From Spiroplasma citri (GTDB taxonomy: Bacteria > Bacillota_I > Bacilli_A > Mycoplasmatales > Mycoplasmataceae): a stretch of 64,000 nucleotides of DNA. The notes below the pieces were generated by a model. The model was not told the DNA's origin. It made no database searches and was given only the letters and a program-made list of their open reading frames with translations. The position numbers and the translations under genes are program-made. Every line of letters starts with the position of its first letter. Within the stretch, counting starts at the first letter, position 1. Positions 16,696 through 63,266 of this stretch are shown piece after piece. The stretch covers positions 868,001 through 932,000 of the forward strand of contig NZ_CP013197.1 of assembly GCF_001886855.1 (NCBI RefSeq), written 5' to 3'.

Positions 16696-16850
16696 TGTTA
16701 ATTTTCTTTCCATAGTTATCAGCAAATTAATAATATAAATAATTGCGAAATTTTTGCTAGATAACTATTACGAAATTATTACAAGATAAGGACATAAATT
16801 ATTAAAATTTCTTGCAGTTTTTTGCAACAATGTTAAAATAATATTGTAAT

Positions 16851-16930
16851 TGACAGAGGTAACTTACAAAACATAAGTTTGAGAAATACTCTTAGAACCT
16901 GATCTAGTTAACACTAGCGTAGGGAGTTCA
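16851..16930 (+). promoter_or_regulatory. TPP (thiamine pyrophosphate) riboswitch
   Basis: The sequence contains the THI-box core: TTGAGAAATACTC, then ACCTGATCTAGTTAACACTAG (read with its GCGTAGGGAG tail). The pairing CTAG/CTAG of the P4 arm and the CTGAGA-like loop are in the right order and spacing. It lies about 90 bases upstream of the thiT-like gene, where it would lower expression when thiamine pyrophosphate is plentiful. Confidence 0.92.
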
Positions 16931-17022
16931 AATTCGTTATTTATTTAATTTAATAAATTTAATTTGATGCTCACTTTCACAGAAGTTAATTACAAAATTA
17001 TTTGTGTAAGGAAATTTTTTAT

Positions 17023-18048
17023 ATGGCCACAACCGCAATTTTTAAGTTTAAGTTAAACCAACAAAAAATTATTTTATGATATAATAAAGTAACTATTTTT
17101 ATCATCATTAGTTTATATCTTGGTATTATAATAAATCTTAGTATTTTACCATTATCAACATTAAGTAAATTATTCCATTTAAATAATGACCAAAATTTTA
17201 AAAATATATGATTTTTTTGTTTAGCGGTTTGTGGATTTGGTTTAATATTTAGTATCATATCCGCAATAAGTGTTTGATTAACAAATTATGAAGAATATAT
17301 TAATTATAAGTTTCAGTTTATTATTTTAAATATTATTAGTTTAAATTTTCTTAATTTAATTAGTAATCTTATTATTTATAGTTATGAAACAAAAGTTAGT
17401 GATTTATTATTTACTAATGTTATAAAACGAAAACGATTTTTAATTAATTTAGGAATTTGAAAATGAAAAACATTTGATATTGTTATTATTGGAATGTTTG
17501 CAGCAGTAACCTTAGCATTAGCATATTTAGAAACCCTGCTGCCAATTTTACCCCATGGGGGTGGGATTGCTCTAAAATATATTCCTCTTACAATAATTGC
17601 TTTTTTTCATTCCGCTTTAGCTGGTTTTTTTGTTGGAAGCATTAGTGCCTTAATGTCCCTGTTATTTATTCCCTCTGGTTTTATTGTTTCACCTTGATCA
17701 TATTTGTTGGATTATTTTATTCCAATGATTATTCCAATGATTGCTGGCTTTATGCGGTTTAAAGTTAACAATGATAAAAAAAATATTACATATGTTAATT
17801 ATATTATTATTTGTTTTAGCATCATTGGTTTAATTGCTTTATCACAAATATTAGGTGGTGTTATCATTTGAACCACATTATTTCCTGCTTCTGTTTGACC
17901 AGGGTATTCTAATTGATTATATGCAATTGTTTATAATTTTATTCATAGTTTTCTTTTTACCTATCCAATCATGCAAATTGTAATACCCCTTGCCTTGCGC
18001 GGTTTAGCTCCAGTGTTTTGACAACGTTATTTAAAATATGATAATTAA
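17023..18048 (+). CDS. thiT: ThiT-like thiamine ECF transporter substrate-binding subunit, long N-terminus
   Basis: The C-terminal half (about residues 160-341) matches the ThiT family: LETLLPILPHGGGIALKYIP, the following HSALAGFFVGSISALMSLL, and a conserved SYLLDYFIPM segment with the family Asp-Tyr. ThiT binds thiamine and works with an ECF energising module. A TPP riboswitch directly upstream supports the substrate. At 341 residues it is far longer than usual ThiT (about 190): an extra N-terminal part has three or so membrane segments of unknown role. The start is ATG 17023 after GTAAGGA. Terminator follows at 18103. Confidence 0.85.
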
Positions 18049-18102
18049 GGTTGCATAAAAAAGTAGGGTATAAAAATATAAAGAAATTAAATAAGAATAA
18101 TT

Positions 18103-18130
18103 AAACCATTTACAAAAATGGTTTTTTTTA
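18103..18130 (+). terminator. Terminator after thiT
   Basis: AAACCATTTACAAAAATGGT hairpin followed by eight T. A mobile-element junction (ATTTGAAAAAACC) starts exactly at the end of the T run, as at 57112 and 63163. Confidence 0.8.
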
Positions 18131-18169
18131 TTTGAAAAAACCTAAAATAACTAATTGATTCAAAACAAG

Positions 18170-18330
18170 GATAGTATCTTTATATATTTATAATTTTTAA
18201 AATAATAAAAAGTTGTTTCCTTTCTGAAAAAAAACAATATTAAATTAAGAAATTAATAAATAATTTATCTACTAACTTAGTAAAGGTGTTGTCCTTGTTT
18301 TGTTTCACTTAGTTATATTAATAAATCAAT
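18170..18330. repeat. Inverted repeat ends of the 700-bp module
   Basis: CAAAACAAGGATAGTATCTTT near 18171 pairs imperfectly with AAAGGTGTTGTCCTTGTTTTG near 18280. The same pair is present in inverted orientation at about 56945-57080. It precedes the small Cys-containing ORF in both places. Confidence 0.6.
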
Positions 18331-18865: not shown

Positions 18866-20038
18866 AATTACTATTTAATGATGAATAAATTGAACCATTA
18901 AAATTAAAAACTTCACCGATTCCCGTTCGGATAAAACTAAAATTAAAACTTAAATCATCATTATTAATATTATTTAATTCCAAACTACCAAAAATAATTA
19001 AATTTGCCTCATCAACAGTTAAAATCATCCGATAAATTGATTTTTTAATATTTTTAACACCCAATTCATCAACCGTCTCAAAATCAAAAATTATCCGCTT
19101 TGTACCAACCTTATTCGAATTTTCATAATCCGCACTACCACCTTACTGAACTCTAATATTTTCCTGCAAAACAGAATATAAAGATAAATCAATAAATTCT
19201 TTTATGCGAGTTTGTTGATAACTATTTCAATCAGTAATTTAACCAGTACTTTCATTAAATTCTATTTTTTTAGGTTTATTTGTATTATCTCAACGATAAA
19301 TTGATTTTATAGAAGAAAGTCAAGCGCCTGTCATTCTAGGAGCAGACTCATCATATTTAAAAAACATTGATTGTCATATTCAATGTGAACTATTTCCTCT
19401 TTTTCAAATAATAAAATATCATTTATCATTATATTTTTCAAATTCTTTTTGTATATTATTTAAAGAACTATCAATTAATTTTCAATTATCTTGGTTTAAC
19501 TTAACTCTTGGATAATGATTTTCTTTATAACGATCAATATTCTCCACAATTTTTTTCGATACATCAAACATCTTATATTTTACAGCAAAGGCATAAATAA
19601 AATCAGTTAAATCATTCAAAAAATTCTCTTTTTTAACATCATAAAATTTTTCAACCATATACCGTTTTTTTAAACTATGTCATTGTTGATAATAACCCAA
19701 AAATACTTCATCTGGTTTATCATAAACAACTCAGGTGGAATAACTATCTTGTAAAAAAATCCAAATACCATTTATCATTAAACGATAATTTTTTTGATGT
19801 TTTTAAAGTTGGATTAATAAAATAATTTGTTTCCGACCAATTTTCAAAAAAAACTACTGCGTAAAAACATCGTATTAATAAAATCAGTTTCATTAATACC
19901 TTTATCAGTACTTATTCTCTTGTTTAAGCATATAATGCTCCTCATTTAAAGGTCTAAACGCCGTTAAAGTAATAAATGGAATAACCAAACCTAAAAAAAT
20001 AAAATAAATATGGCAAATAAAGATAACGATTTTTTCAT
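18866..20038 (-). pseudogene. SpV1 adsorption protein fragment with a third variable domain
   Basis: The start ATG is at 20038 (signal-segment coding), with frame breaks near 19915 and 19760 and a nonsense TAA where other copies have GAA in GEITDW. The gene is cut after NFNGSIYSSLNSN (about 18868). The variable domain at 19218-19500 (NWKLIDSSLNNIQKEF to SIYRWDNTNKPKKIEF) differs from those of SpV1-A and SpV1-C, while both flanks are the same framework. No lipoprotein partner survives here. Confidence 0.8.
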
Positions 20039-21890: not shown

Positions 21891-22120
21891 TCTTGTTGTC
21901 CTCCTTTTTTCAATATGTAATAAGTAATTATTAGCATAATTCCTATAGTATTTTAACATATTTTTTAAAATAAGTCTTATTTTCGTGGTTTTTAAAAATC
22001 TGCTTTTCTTCTATTACATTTAGTATCGATAGCAATGATATTATCATTTAAATTTGTTCCATCTTGTGGGCATCGTGTACGATGAAGCGGCAAAAAAACA
22101 ACTCTTGTTAAAGGGTTGTT
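21891..22120. other. Intergenic, remnant with hairpin before SpV1-B
   Basis: No complete gene. A minus-strand stretch reads like a broken Cys-containing peptide (RTRCPQDGTNLNDNIIAIDTK) but I cannot place it. The hairpin AACAACTCTTGTTAAAGGGTTGTT ends at 22121, where the viral terminal sequence TGTAGAAACC begins. Confidence 0.5.
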
Positions 22121-22208
22121 TGTAGAAACCACACACATTTTGTATTTTTGGTTTTTACAGTTTTGAACTAAAAATTTTTATAATATTTTTAATTAAGGAG
22201 TTGAAATT

Positions 22209-33977: not shown

Positions 33978-34166
33978 ATGAAAAATAAAACATACAAATA
34001 TATTAGATTAAATATTTTAGATGATATTAATGATTTTCTTAATCAAGTTCAACCCGAAAATTTTCGTATTGTAACAATTGATTCAACCCGAAAGGTTTGA
34101 GGTATTTTTCAAAAAGGATATGCTGTTTTTTATTGAAGTGAGCAAAACCCAATTCCAAGAATCTAA
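33978..34166 (+). CDS. Hypothetical protein, 62 aa
   Basis: MKNKTYKYIRLNILDDINDF then VQPENFRIVTIDSTRKVWG and a C-terminus ending SEQNPIPRI. An AGAAAGAG site precedes the ATG, and tandem TATGTTAGTATTAAA repeats lie just upstream (about 33913-33945). The 3' part meets an IS30 relic on the opposite strand near 34150, so the original end may be altered. Not recognised. Confidence 0.5.
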
Positions 34167-34828
34167 CAAAAATATTTTTAATCGTTTTAACAACTTCTTC
34201 GGCTGTTTGTTCTCTTAATTTTTCAGCAATAGTAAATTTAGTTAATTCTTCTGTAAAAGTAAGAACAGCAGATTTATGGTCAGCTCCAACAATACAATCC
34301 ATTTGAAATCAACCAAATTCATATCTATCATGTTTTGCTTCTTCAATAGTTCTGTAATTTGATAATTTACCTCGATTATCAGTACTATTTTTTGTTTTTC
34401 GCTTCTTTCACTTAAAATAAAGATATTTTTTATCCATATTAAATAATCCTAAATAAATATATTTATAAAGTGTTTTAAAACACATTGGAAATTTTTCGCC
34501 AAATTCAATCTCATACATTTTACAAATTGTTTCAGGTGTACTATGTAAAGTATTAAAATTTTTGTTTAATCACTTAATCTGTTTAACTGTTAAAGTAATA
34601 TGTTTTTTAGAATTTTTTCTATTTTTAAGATATTGTTTTTGTAATTTTAAAGGATCATATTCTTTAAATTTTTTAAGTTCACGTCGAATTGTTTCCTTAT
34701 CTCTTCCCATAAACCGTGCTATCTTTGAGTAATTAATTTTACCATTTTTGTTTATTATATAATTCTGATCTAGATAATTCCTTTAATATAATTTTTTCAT
34801 TAATACTTAAATGTTTAAATTTTCTCAT
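34150..34828 (-). pseudogene. IS30-family transposase, 3'-truncated and frameshifted
   Basis: A different IS30 lineage from the SpV1-A one: RKFKHLSINEKIILKELS, then after a frame break NYSKIARFMGRDKETIRREL (HTH), KMYEIEFGEKFPMCFKTLYK and the first catalytic region FQMDCIVGADHKSAVLTF. Sequence stops after FVRFLELG before the second catalytic Asp. Dead element. Confidence 0.75.
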
Positions 34829-56877: not shown

Positions 56878-57112
56878 TTTTAGTTTCTCCAATCTAATAT
56901 TTAACGATTGATTTATTAATATAACTAAGTGAAACAAAACAAGGACAACACCTTTACTAAGTTAGTATGTGTGTTATTTACTAATTTCTTAATTTAATAC
57001 GGTTTTTTTCAGAAAGGAAACAACTTTTTATTATTTTAAAAATTATAAATATATAAAGATGCTGTCCTTGTTTTGAATCAATTAGTTATTTTGGGTTTTT
57101 TCAAATAAAAAA

Positions 57113-57399
57113 ACAACCCTTTAATAAAAGTTGTTTTGGCGAATTTCATTTTACAATATACAATATAATAAATAATTAAGAAAAATAGTATGTAAGAAAA
57201 GGGAAAATTTAAATTTTCCCTTTTCTTACATTAAATTGTTAAAAATAAGCATATTTTTTATTATTAACTTAAAAATATTGCTAATTCAAAATAATTATGA
57301 TAAAGTAAATATTGTAAATGATTTTAAAAATATCAATACTATTTTTAAAATAAATGACTTTAATTAATCTAATTAAATAATAGGAAAGAAAATTTTGAT
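57113..57399. other. Intergenic with terminator and perfect palindrome
   Basis: A minus-strand hairpin (AACAACTTTTATTAAAGGGTTGTT) sits at 57113-57142 beside the mobile border. The 40-bp perfect palindrome is at 57191-57230. The rest is AT-rich and holds the promoter and AGGAAAG site of the 57400 gene. Confidence 0.6.
57191..57230. repeat. 40-bp perfect palindrome
   Basis: TGTAAGAAAAGGGAAAATTT followed directly by its exact complement, with no loop. It could act as a terminator (T-rich right arm), but a loop-free 20+20 palindrome could also be a protein-binding site or a resolved junction. Confidence 0.85.
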
Positions 57400-57754: not shown

Positions 57755-57786
57755 TAATAATCTAGATTATATCTAGATTTTTTTTA
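57755..57786 (+). terminator. Terminator after the 105-aa gene
   Basis: AATCTAGATTATATCTAGATT stem (AATCTAGAT/ATCTAGATT) followed by a T run. Confidence 0.8.
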
Positions 57787-58089
57787 ATTTGTATTGTAAA
57801 GATTCAAGTAGGTAATACCAACCTTGTTAATATGATATTATATCTTTTATTTTAAAATACAATATTTTTTCAAAAAAAATTATTTTTTTAAATATAAGTT
57901 AATGGCTGTATAAATTATTTAAGGGTATTTAATATATTTTAAGAAATTATGGAATAAATAATTTACATAATTAATTTAAAAATACCATGTTTAATTTTAT
58001 TGTCAACAAATTTTTATATTTTTTTAAATTTAATCACAACAAAAAAATGCATTGCATTTTTATTAAAATTATTTAACTTAAAAATAAAA
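57787..58089. other. AT-rich intergenic region
   Basis: No gene seen. Contains AAATGCATTGCATTT (about 58044-58059), a short palindrome, close to the end of the transposase remnant; it may be part of the element end. Confidence 0.4.
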
Positions 58090-59430
58090 TTAATAAAGAT
58101 GTAAGTTTTGTTGTTCAGTTTTATTAAAATTATTATATAAAATACTATTATTTTCTGGTGGTTGCTCTGATTTTTTAAAATCCTTAATATTTTTTCTTAA
58201 TTTTATCATACTAGTATTCAATTTATTTTTAACATTTTTTTCGCTATAAATTCCTTTTTTAGAAAATATACCCTTAGCACAATGTGAAATATCACTCTCC
58301 ATATGACACCCAATATTATTTCATAATGTTTGATTTTTAATACCCTCTTCGTTATTTTTAATTAGGTTAATTGTTTTAATAAAATATTCTTTTTTTGAAT
58401 CGGAAATAAATGGCTTGCTCTCTTTTAAACACTGTAATAATTCCTCATATTTTCCGTTATAAAAATAATAAATAGCATTATCAAATATTTCTTTAATTTC
58501 TGCGGTTTTGCTTTGAAAAGGAAATAAATTTTCAAACCTACTTTTAAGATGAAATTTATCTATTGTATAATGAACTTTGTTATTAGGAAAACGATTTGCA
58601 ATAACTTTTTTAACCCCTTTAATTCAATTTGCTCCATCACCTAAAATCATAATTTCGGTATCATCTTGAATATTATAATTACTTATTATCAAAAGTATTA
58701 ATTTAACAACAAAACGGGTTAATTTTGTTTTTTTAAAATATAAATTGGAATATTATCTATTTCGTAAACACCTAACTTATTTGCAATTACATGTCTTTTT
58801 TCGGTTGATTTTTCTTGATCATATCCAGTGTGAACGGTAGAAATTAAGGTATGTTTTTTAATCTTTTTTCCTTCATATCACACTTTCATTTTTAAGTATG
58901 TTCCATCCACTTGAATATATAAAGTATGCGGAACATTTATTTTGATATTGGTATTATTAATATAATATTTGTCGTTTGTTGTTGCGTTTTTTATAGTATT
59001 TGAAATTGTCATTAAACTAATTTTTGCTTGTTCTAAGGCATCTAAAATATCGCGGTATTTTTTATCATCACTTAAAAACAATAAAATTCTTTTTTTGACG
59101 TCATTCACCAGTCTTTGTCATTTTTTAATTCCTAAAACTTCATCTAAAATAAAAATATATTCTTCTTTCCCTGTTATTGGATTAATTTTATAATATCGTC
59201 GTCTGCAAAATGTTATTTTACCTTATTATTAATATCCATTTAAAGTAATTAATGTTTTTGTTCTTATTTCTTTTACTCGATAATGTTTAAATTTATCATA
59301 TTTTTGAAAATTTTGAAAAATAAGATCATCTCACTTTTCTAACCTATATGAAATTTCTCCAACAACATATCTATTCAAATCTTCATATGTTTTATTAAAA
59401 AAGTTGTCACCATTAATAATTTTAAAGTTG
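58090..59430 (-). pseudogene. ISLre2-type (Mbov_0401-like, UPF0236) transposase, several breaks
   Basis: Pieces in order: YEDLNRYVVGEISYRLEKWD, three consecutive stops near 59222, FCRRRYYKINPITGKEEYIF, LYIQVDGTYLKMKVWYEGKK (catalytic Asp region), then after a frame break near 58735 ILGDGANWIKGVKKVIANRF (second acidic region) and YTIDKFHLKSRFENLF. It ends ISHCAKGIFSKKGIYSEKNV with a Lys/Gln tail. This family is common in Mollicute integrative elements. Dead copy. Confidence 0.8.
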
Positions 59431-59609
59431 TTTCCTTTCCTGATTTAAAAATAAATCATCACACACATTAAAATAAACACCTAAAAAAGCAAGTTATTTT
59501 TAACTTGTTTTTCCAATATTTAATTTTTTTAATATTATTTAATACAATTTTGATACTTTTTTGATAACAAAAATATTATATCTTAATTTAAAATAAAAAA
59601 ACAAGATTT
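59431..59609. other. Intergenic with hairpin
   Basis: AAGCAAGTTATTTTTAACTTGTTTT hairpin near 59488-59512 and AAGATTTTTAATCTTG near 59601-59617 (terminator of the Cys-rich gene). No gene. Confidence 0.5.
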
Positions 59610-59987
59610 TTAATCTTGCTTATAATAATTTTCGTTAAAATAAATTTTTAAATAATATTTAAAATCAGAATCATCATCACTAAAATAAAAAAGACATTCT
59701 TTACAATTATAATAATTTTTATAACAAATGTAGCAACATGGGCTATTACATACAATACATTCATATCCTTTTTTTGCTTTTCTATAACACAACCCTCTTG
59801 CACCAGTAAATTGACATTTTTCATCGTTAACATGTTTATTATATTTTTCTCAAAATATTTCTTTAAAAAATTCATTTTCTTTTTTTATTTGTTCTTCACT
59901 TTTTGGTTTATATTCAAAAAAAGATTTTATTTCTGCTACAATTTTTTCAAATTCAGTTTCAAATTCAGTTTTAGATTCTTTTTCCAC
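59610..59987 (-). CDS. Cys-rich zinc-binding-type protein, 125 aa
   Basis: GTG start after TGGAGGAAAAA. The N-terminal half is acidic and helical (EFEKIVAEIKSFFEYKPKSE). The C-terminal half holds a dense Cys cluster: CQFTGARGLCYRKAKKGYEC, then CNSPCCYICYKNYYNCKEC, a treble-clef or double zinc-ribbon-like pattern. It ends in an acidic/aromatic tail. Its own terminator follows. Not recognised; nucleic acid or protein binding is likely. Confidence 0.6.
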
Positions 59988-60126
59988 TTTTTCCTCCACT
60001 TGTTCTTTTTTTCTTTTAATAACATATTATCAAAAAAAATAAATTTTTATCATTATTCTTTGTATATATTTATATTCATTATATAATTTTTATATAAATA
60101 AAATATCAAGAAAGGACTGGTTTTTT

Positions 60127-60651
60127 ATGAAAAAATGATTAAGTTTTTTAGGAGCAATTACATTACTAGGTACAAGCACAACAAGTTTAGTTGCTTGTAA
60201 TAATATACCACAATATAACGAAGATGAATTACAACAACTAAAAAAAGAAAACCAAATATACACAAATTGCCAAGAAATAAAAGAAAACTTAGAATGAATT
60301 TGCCCTCAAGAAAAACCATTTAATCAAGTTGATAATAAATGATATTATGTAATATGGCGAGAAGATAATTCTGTTAATTGAAAAATTGATAAATTTAAAA
60401 ATAATAGATTAGAATATATTAAAATTAATAAAATTAATGATTATGAAATAGGAGTTTCTAACAATAGAGAAGAAAACCGAGTATTATTCATTTTTAAAGA
60501 AAATAAAGAAATTGTAAGATGAAATTGATGAAATTATAATAATAAAACTTTCTTTAAATCAGTTTATCGTTGAAATTTATATTTCCCACCTTCATCAATC
60601 CCTAATTTAATTATCGATGATAATGGTAATGTAAAAGTTAATAGTGAATAA
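60127..60651 (+). CDS. Orphan phage-type lipoprotein with variable domain (allele 4)
   Basis: A 174-residue lipoprotein with signal MKKWLSFLGAITLLGTSTT and lipobox LVAC, like the SpV1 lipoproteins. After a short linker the domain reads NQVDNKWYYVIWREDNSVNW, KIDKFKNN, then FFKSVYRWNLYFPPSSIPNL and DDNGNVKVNS, the same aromatic pattern and YRW...P...G ending as in the paired lipoproteins. No partner adsorption gene lies nearby. AAGAAAGGAC is the ribosome site, and a terminator follows. Confidence 0.75.
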
Positions 60652-62158: not shown

Positions 62159-62641
62159 TTACCTCTCATAATTAGCAATAATAATGGCATCGCGGAGATG
62201 ATTACTTATTTTTTCATTATTATAAAATCAACCTTTACCATATTGATAAGTTAAATCAGGATCTTTATCATATTTTCATAAACAACTATTATTATATTTA
62301 CTTAAATTTTCCATATTTTTAACAACTGATTTAGTATATTTTGGTGATACTCAATTAATAATTTCATAACGGTCTTTGTCAATTGCACCTAATAACTTTA
62401 ATAAGTCATCTCTATCTTTTGAACCATTATTATTTGTATATAAACAATTTTCTATATAAAGAAAACAATCTTCTTCAATAAGATCAAAATCAATTATAAA
62501 ATCAAGTATATAGTTTGCGTGATTTAATCAAAATTTATCTGTATAAAGAATTTGTTTTTTTAAAATATTATCTTCATACACAACAATACCAGTAGTACCA
62601 GTACCTGATGGGTCAATACCTATTTTTATCAAGTTGCTCAT
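62159..62641 (-). CDS. RuvC-like Holliday junction resolvase, phage type
   Basis: A 160-residue RNase H-fold nuclease: LIKIGIDPSGTGTTGIVVYE (first Asp), DCFLYIENCLYTNNNGSKDR (Glu), and ISNHLRDAIIIANYE (last Asp, in the HxxDA place). Such proteins cut recombination intermediates in phages, matching the RecT upstream. ATG at 62641 overlaps the recT end by 16 bases. Intact. Confidence 0.75.
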
Positions 62642-63163
62642 TCCTCATCATTATTAACTGCTGGTACTACATTTGAGATATCTTCTTCTTTAACGACATT
62701 ATCGTTAGTGTTTGCTATTTCTGGATAAGATGGGGTATTTATATTATTTAATAATGGTTCATCGCTCATTTGCCCTTTATTTTTGGCGACATCAATATCT
62801 TTAAATGAAATATATTCAAAATTACCATCTTCTTTAATTTCTTTTTCATCTAAATCAATATCATATATATCAGTCCCAATTTCTAATGCTAATTTACGAT
62901 ATAATTTTGCTTCAACCATTTCTTTTGGTCATTTATTTCAAGGTGAATATTCACTATTACCACTAGGACTACTATTTCTTAAACGATCAATATCTGCTTT
63001 TCTTAATAAAATACCTTGATAATTTCCATTTTTATCTTTTGCAAAAGCATAAGCACCAATAATTTCATTATAATCACTAGTATTTGCATTAAAATTAATT
63101 TCATGTATTTTAGGACATGAATTTAAACTATCTCATTCAAATTTTTCACCTTGTAAAGTTGTT
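62626..63163 (-). pseudogene. recT: Second RecT, 5'-truncated
   Basis: Preserves the core and C-terminus: GEKFEWDSLNSCPKIHEINF, then IIGAYAFAKDKNGNYQGILL and RKADIDRLRNSSPSGNSEYS, and PWNKWPKEMVEAKLYRKLAL. The acidic tail is long (VVKEEDISNVVPAVNNDEEW). The N-terminal half is absent: the frame is cut at 63163, exactly at a terminator T run. It is a different RecT from that at 49353. Confidence 0.8.
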
Positions 63164-63164
63164 T

Positions 63165-63200
63165 TTCAAATAAAAAAGCAACCCTTTAACAAGAATTGCT
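63165..63200 (-). terminator. Terminator of the PAP2 gene
   Basis: On the minus strand AAAGCAATTCTTGTTAAAGG then GTTGCTTTTTT forms a hairpin with a T run. Phage sequence begins directly after the T run (ATTTGAAAAACAAC). Confidence 0.8.
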
Positions 63201-63266
63201 TTTTTTCCTACTTCATCCTTTATTCTACAATTTTTAAACAATATCATAACAACATAGATAGCATTC

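Follow-up and report, generated by a model that had tools for sequence, protein, structure and literature searches.

The 16-base string TTTTTTATTTGAAAAA, found at three loci of a 64,000-bp window of the Spiroplasma citri genome (C1:868001–932000), appears from sequence comparison to be the inner edge of a phage left end, a seam between an integration cassette and a phage leader, and not an insertion target. The phages concerned carry DDE transposases, and the reading that we favor, with a probability of about 0.78, is that their cassettes have been traded by recombination at the T run located at this edge. An initial annotation of the window had seen mobile borders at the T runs of terminators and had offered two explanations, an integration system aiming at the T run or stem and recombination using the repeated string as homology. 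The homology idea proved largely right and the targeting idea wrong.

Copies of the 16-mer and borders of the window elements

The string is present in 18 exact copies in the 1.64-Mb S. citri genome (three contigs) and its reversed control in none, and a chance AT-rich motif was rejected on these counts. When two mismatches are allowed, its count in the window (13 vs. 10.8 by chance) is at chance level. Seventeen of the 18 copies belong to phage-related elements, in each of which the string lies just within the left end. The remaining one, at C1:461437, belongs to a host locus common to the relatives G011 and G012; with a single non-phage copy once the flanks had been listed genome-wide, the link to phage DNA is not trivial in this genome. 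According to their flanks, the other copies fall into three classes. Ten, one of them on contig C2, are of type A, with conservation on both sides of the string. Six are of type B, preceded by the AACTCTTGTTAAAGGGTTG hairpin or a close one and followed by CAAC- or other sequence. The last one, at 57097, is a hybrid with type B sequence upstream and the type A leader downstream. Counting inexact copies too brings the chromosomal type A left ends to 11 and the type B left ends to 13, and the leader is found without a type A left end at two more loci, 57097 and 728800. Contig C2 (26,182 bases) is a patchwork of C1:717121–706370, contig C3, and C1:752000–742122 at 99.8–99.98% identity, and probably reflects either duplication in the assembly or a molecule that has been rearranged.

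Among 39 relatives, 13 have the string, mostly in one or two copies each. G005, of the same genus, has 16 copies (reversed control 2), G032 four, and G001 three. The 24 loci with the string in relatives comprise five type A ends, six type B ends, two host loci, and 11 unrelated ones. As the 11 phage ends all come from three genomes of the same genus and as many loci are unrelated, the string is meaningless outside such hosts. Plasmid matches of the source genome are all with S. citri, and its phage matches are with phages of S. citri and S. kunkelii.

The window features are as follows (window positions); MSRO-P1 is a phage of S. poulsonii considered below.

18049–18123, + strand: type A (Mutator/Mbov_0401-type) prophage left end; tip GGTTGCATAAAAAAGTAGGG, about 50 bp, then hairpin
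18124–18139, + strand: TTTTTTATTTGAAAAA, seam between integration cassette and phage leader
18140–18868, + strand: type A leader and damaged first ORF, interrupted by SpV1 plectrovirus DNA from 18868
22069–22121, + strand: further type B left end, GGCATCGTGTACGATGAAGCGGC and hairpin, broken off within the T run
34039–34710, − strand: remnant of an IS30-family transposase, probably on the hybrid element's far side; 93% identity to the MSRO-P1 transposase over 181 aa
35527–36551, + strand: terminase large-subunit fragments adjoining the IS30 transposase, as in MSRO-P1
56497–56742, − strand: first phage ORF of the hybrid element, 81 aa, 58% identity to a 79-aa ORF of MSRO-P1
57097–57112, − strand: TTTTTTATTTGAAAAA of the hybrid, where a type B left end joins the type A leader
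57113–57162, − strand: type B (IS30-type) prophage left end, TGTATATTGTAAAATGAAATTCGCC and hairpin
57904–60405, − strand: right end of the neighboring type A element, tip TTTATACAGCC
62159–62641, − strand: RuvC-like resolvase ORF, 62% to the RuvC-like protein of MSRO-P1
62626–63192, − strand: 5′-truncated recT
63162–63177, − strand: TTTTTTATTTGAAAAA, type B left end fused to phage DNA with the truncated recT
63178–63238, − strand: second IS30-type prophage left end, subtype TTGTAGAATAAAGGATGAAGTAGG, and hairpin; tip within about 8 bp (63231–63238)

At the three loci, the string follows a hairpin exactly where the initial annotation had placed it, and the stems fold. The folds (z of −2.2, −1.3, and −3.0) are weak at two of the places, and none of these hairpins was listed by a strict terminator scan of the window loci. 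At 18103, an alternative stem spanning the string folds slightly better than the hairpin upstream of it. The same phage module does lie downstream of the string at 18139 and 57097 (95.5% identity over 425 bp), and the third place runs into a recT that covers positions 85–168 only of the 198 of the Pfam RecT profile.

The borders of the elements had been misplaced. Eleven chromosomal loci share the hairpin at 18130 together with some 50 bp on its left side, with variable host DNA left of 18049, and the hairpins at 57112 and 63163 are parts of repeated type B left ends. Since the hairpin and its adjacent DNA recur among the copies, the T run is an internal border of the element and not a border with the host. 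The element–host borders are about 75, 50, and 54–61 bp outside the T run at the three places, and prophage ends are to be marked some 50–75 bp outside TTTTTTATTTGAAAAA, not at the string. At the first locus the host border (18048/18049) immediately follows the stop codon of a ThiT-like ORF (17002–18048), and a tip like the one at 18049 makes the circle junction of phage NSRO-P2. A TPP riboswitch (16845–16943; RF00059, 68 bits) lies upstream of the ThiT-like ORF that abuts the prophage end.

Several neighboring features deserve mention. SpV1 was rejected as a carrier of the seam, its matches to this stretch beginning only at 18868. This plectrovirus occupies neighboring stretches of the window but differs from the elements described here: it is filamentous, its own transposase is IS481/IS3-like (below the cut-offs of those families), and it is not at the seam. 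A 19-pair stem with a T-rich tail, the sole hairpin returned by the strict scan, is located just outside the hybrid left end (57190–57231). A broken UPF0236/Mbov_0401 transposase lies at about 58201–59324 in the type A right-end stretch. Directly outside this right end, the sequence at 57780–57903 resembles, by eye, other IS30 transposase genes at their downstream end (ACAAGGTTGGTATTACCTACTTGAATCTTTACAATACAAAT; comparators, the IS30 copies L162 and L163), as if one element had inserted into the end of another. At C1:791993–792091 (L090), one prophage has gone into the end of a second one: a type B left end is located some 35 bp within a type A right end.

Probable exchange of cassettes between phages

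The type B left end, found at 13 loci, might have been an independent repeat of some 85 bp, but this was rejected since it proved to be a phage left end: the same end lies next to the IS30 transposase in phage MSRO-P1. This transposase scores 197 bits with NF033563 (cut-off 80) and the window fragment 104 bits. The element extending leftwards from 57162 is a hybrid. It combines a first ORF and early genes as in the type A element with terminase fragments and an IS30 transposase fragment; gene order suggests that the remnant at 34039–34710 is part of this element, whose right end was looked for and is missing. Aligned without gaps to the type A copy at 669004, the locus at 57097 is identical at 24 of 60 positions before the seam and at 39 of 40 after it, and the leader is 97.5% identical over 838 bp. 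A second hybrid, at C1:728775, has a type B left end of a different subtype. Its ungapped counts are 22/60 before and 20/40 after, a poor score because its leader differs by two bases in length at the seam; with gaps, it is 98% identical to the C2 copy over 846 bp. If 825.9k–831.7k is one element, it has AAA flanks on both sides, in a context too A-rich for this to carry weight.

Ordinary IS30 copies having the same left end were considered as a source of the cassette hairpin: none of the 14 examined (2.2–2.5 kb each, at most six mismatches) has either hairpin with its T run. Most of the 14 IS30-type transposase genes (L150–L163) adjoin lipoprotein-like genes and, by eye, have the ends TTTACATAATTCA or TTTACAATACAAA. 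Instead of plain insertion sequences, these may be mobile units of larger size.

The same seam was found in phages of the Spiroplasma phage MaM-2019a group (OL689226, OL689227, and OL689230), which are particle-derived records from S. poulsonii; the accessible part of PMC12453411 reports particles for these related phages. MSRO-P1 encodes an IS30 transposase, and NSRO-P1 and NSRO-P2 a UPF0236/Mbov_0401-like (Mutator-type) transposase 57–60% identical to that of the type A element. By blastn, MSRO-P1 matches NSRO-P1 and NSRO-P2 in long stretches of mostly 89–96% identity and shorter ones of 76–85%. Similarity ends between terS and the transposase gene (MSRO-P1 position 17448 or 17520), is absent across the cassette, and returns at 18947 (L094:18947), within the T run. 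In ungapped comparison, the 60 bases before the string show 22 and 27 identities (19 are expected from composition), and the 40 bases from the string on show 37. The joined ends of these circles read TTTACA-AAA-TGTAAA in MSRO-P1, CGACC-ATTTT-GGTCG in NSRO-P2, and CAACC-ATAAT-GGTCG in NSRO-P1. The spacer is thus 3 bp (AAA) in MSRO-P1 and 5 bp (ATTTT and ATAAT) in both Mutator-type records, within 1 bp depending on the placement of the tips. The inverted-repeat arms of NSRO-P2, with tips CGACC/GGTCG, are 24 nt long and 88% complementary. The joined ends together with the seam indicate that transposase, both ends, and hairpin form one cassette, of which two families exist in otherwise similar phages. 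The S. poulsonii phages have exchanged more than the cassette, since the connector region and some of the early genes fail to align as well. Rfam gave no match on the three phage records up to an E value of 0.1. Behind the first ORF, a conserved stretch of a few hundred bases has no annotated gene (L170 424–737 and L094 19442–19715, 89% identity).

In the S. citri genome, as among the S. poulsonii phages, two unrelated left ends meet one and the same leader at the string, which supports the proposal of recombination at the repeated string. In a tree of 19–20 leaders, the cassette type changes three times, and at least two changes are forced by strongly supported branches. AU tests, run without the long-branched row L086, rejected all three IS30-type leaders as one clade (P = 2e-94); the two S. 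citri hybrids as one clade, that is, one event, were not rejected (P = 0.094).

We propose the following scheme. Tailed Spiroplasma phages would integrate by means of a DDE transposase instead of an integrase, and it is the circular phage genome that would transpose. In the circle, a cassette of about 1.4–1.8 kb combines the transposase gene with the right and left terminal repeats and with the hairpin and its T run. There are two unrelated cassettes: one has an IS30-family transposase, the other a Mutator-related transposase of the Mbov_0401/UPF0236 family, as known from mycoplasma ICEs. The hairpins of both finish with the same T run and TATTTG, directly followed by the phage leader. This shared T run and TATTTG, with the leader, would provide homology beside the cassette, so that one cassette could replace the other by a crossover at the T run. 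Such short-homology recombination might be carried out by the RecT- or ERF-type annealing proteins that the phages encode, and we infer in the same way which module moved in the S. citri genome. The hairpin may serve to insulate the phage genes from outside transcription. What the sequences themselves establish is the make-up of the two cassettes with their ends, the 9-bp duplication flanking one type A element, and the T-run seam in S. citri and S. poulsonii phages.

A serious rival grants that cassettes are exchanged and denies that the T run is a hot spot. Selection for transposase binding and insulation would keep the left end with its hairpin, and random breaks would be filtered to the inner edge. 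It overlaps with exchange at the T run and differs in mechanism only. Behind the 13 type B left ends, we distinguished about nine different kinds of sequence (by eye, some supported by alignments), as random breaks would leave, and at least three of the joints look like deletions, needing no special homology: recT at 931153, a start behind the first ORF at 843148, and the break within the T run at 890095. However, the unrelated cassettes share the T run and TATTTG, leader identity begins inside this stretch in three comparisons, and selection acting on each end alone leaves a common terminal stretch unexplained. We lean against filtering while according it real weight.

Chance, or the plain common descent of one prophage family with the joint at 57112 as a one-off rearrangement, appears very improbable. 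Most S. citri copies do look damaged, and hybrids are only 2 of the 14 leader copies (C2 included), but the reversed control has no match in the source genome, the joint recurs in the particle-derived MSRO-P1 and at C1:728775, and a single clade of the three IS30-type leaders is rejected as reported above.

Beyond exchange at the T run lies a broader reading, which we find rather doubtful: that integrase-free phages draw on a pool of interchangeable DDE cassettes, with the bidirectional hairpin and T run as a standard joint and annealing recombinases as the means of trading. Equally tentatively, one cassette of this pool would be borrowed from, or shared with, mycoplasma ICEs, the other would be of IS30 type, and tyrosine and serine integrases would have been given up.

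Integration and gene content of type A prophages

Type A left ends (11 chromosomal ones and that of contig C2) are conserved on both sides of the 16-mer and vary only beyond the tip. The variable flank starts outside the motif GRNNG(T/C)ATAAAA, about 70–75 bp left of TTTTTTATTTGAAAAA. The far ends finish with AATAATTTATAC and four to five tip bases, followed by unrelated sequence. In the element at C1:1014.2k–981.3k, both ends are present, and outside them is a 9-bp duplication, GATACTTTA. This insertion sits inside a coding sequence with the motif GMGDTLTG, by which we take the gene to be that of NAD(P)HX dehydratase. The initial annotation had suggested looking for empty sites in related strains. 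For this insertion, the joined flanks match 11 of 14 genomes of the genus, S. citri source included; five of the 13 congeners match all 128 bases unbroken, five match partly, and three have no match. In the source genome, the flank pieces correspond to query bases 1–51 and 43–128, an overlap of exactly 9. When the 11 type A left ends were compared by eye with 13 right ends or right-end fragments (a 14th hit, without tip, was dropped), only one had a matching 9-bp partner, which indicates that most type A copies are rearranged or truncated.

That an integration system aims at host terminator T runs or stems was suggested by the strings sitting behind hairpins, and 2 of the 11 type A flanks do have a weak stem with a T-rich tail within 55 bases of the tip, on the opposite strand; the idea is refuted for type A ends and, with type B flanks judged by eye only, has a negligible probability, as each copy of the element brings along the hairpin at the string as its own DNA, no run of six T occurs within the 20 bases next to the tip in any of the 11 type A left-end flanks, and the one intact insertion is inside a gene.

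Ten proteins were scanned of the 45 ORFs listed in this 33-kb element. They include TerL, portal, HK97 protease/capsid, major tail (tail tube), tape measure, Dit-like, and tail proteins, together with an exonuclease and an SMC/AAA ATPase. In PHROGs, eight of the ten match families with an assigned phage function; of the other two, one matches only families of unknown function and the transposase one weak tail family. No type IV secretion or conjugation gene was found among the ten. By its gene content the element is a siphophage-type prophage. Its final gene encodes a 440-aa transposase of the Mbov_0401 family (NF046004, 287.3 bits, cut-off 162), which also matches UPF0236 (75.7 bits, cut-off 24.3) and, below the cut-off of 200, ISLre2 (NF033529, 103 bits). 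The Mbov_0401 family is widely distributed in the genus, occurring in 11 of 14 genomes (source included), and its presence on phages may therefore be widespread. When genome contigs, in a set that may omit near kin of the source, were scanned with the first ORF, seven loci came up, all in S. phoeniceum P40; five have type A left ends and two have no seam in the 1020 bases checked. The same scan of viral contigs found no relative.

Relation to known mobile elements

Mutator-type transposases have been described in ICEs, transposons, and IS elements with duplications of 8 or 9 bp (Guerillot et al. 2014; accessible part of PMC3942029). According to the same part of this source, the p-MULT 5 branch was found in Mycoplasma only, and all but one of the delimited elements carry type IV secretion genes. 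The Mbov_0401 family (NF046004) probably corresponds to p-MULT 5, judging from their common origin in mycoplasma ICEs. The type A transposase scores over the family cut-off, is the last gene before the right end, and is associated in one element with a 9-bp duplication; the inverted repeats of 18–39 bp ending in C are also shared, the 24-nt arms of NSRO-P2 being within this range. The cargo of type A differs in being a tailed phage, with no conjugation gene among the 10 of 45 ORFs tested. The spacer in the phage circles counts 5 bp, give or take one with the placement of the tips, and 6–10 bp between the repeats are reported for Mutator-type circles in the part of PMC3942029 consulted. The Mutator-type transposase of mycoplasma ICEs is now placed on a tailed prophage.

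For the IS30 family, the accessible part of PMC9333248 describes joined ends with a short spacer and a 2-bp target duplication in Escherichia coli IS30. The type B elements resemble this family in having a transposase over the curated cut-off; in MSRO-P1, the TGTAAA...TTTACA ends have 3 bp between them when joined. The type B elements differ in that an entire phage genome separates the left end from the transposase and in that this end includes the hairpin and T run.

Mu-type phages are tailed phages that integrate by DDE transposition. They have other transposases and duplication lengths, and exchange between two families of cassettes is a feature of the Spiroplasma phages. Phages are known to exchange integration modules in the case of integrases; the present case would involve two DDE-transposase systems that are unrelated, and one crossover is located to within a few bases. 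The MaM-2019a phages are among the closest to the elements of the window: they share the leader and the kind of hairpin–T-run seam, a related first ORF (MSRO-P1 and NSRO-P2), the RecT/RuvC region, and, in MSRO-P1, the IS30 transposase of the hybrid element. They differ from the type A element, of about 33 kb with HK97-type siphophage genes, in being 19–20 kb long with P22/T4-like head and packaging genes according to the depositors' notes.

The S. poulsonii particle phages and their annotated transposases are already public (GenBank records). What may be new, within the literature searched, is the seam, together with the type A siphophage and the 9-bp duplication. Neither the seam nor a Mutator-type phage transposase was found in the accessible parts of this literature, which includes PMC12453411, PMC8140453, PMC3942029, PMC9333248, PMC7466169, PMC13375240, and PMC11004492; Ramirez et al. 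2023 (Curr Microbiol), on the MaM particles, is outside it. Genome rearrangements in this host group have so far been attributed mostly to SpV1. In the parts available, plectrovirus prophages are the main topic of the S. citri genome paper (PMC8140453), and a review of mycoplasma islands treats prophages and ICEs separately (PMC7466169).

The leader contains an inverted repeat, 18143–18182 with 18281–18320 in the window and 18973–18997 with 19133–19157 in L094, the arms being 98–135 nt apart. Its 18-bp core is paired in each of the 157 cells of nine aligned sequences, with three pairs changed on both sides (nine cells). In 500 shuffles, none reached the cell count or the covariation score, and 291 reached the count of three pairs. 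This repeat is a candidate operator, origin, or leader-RNA stem.
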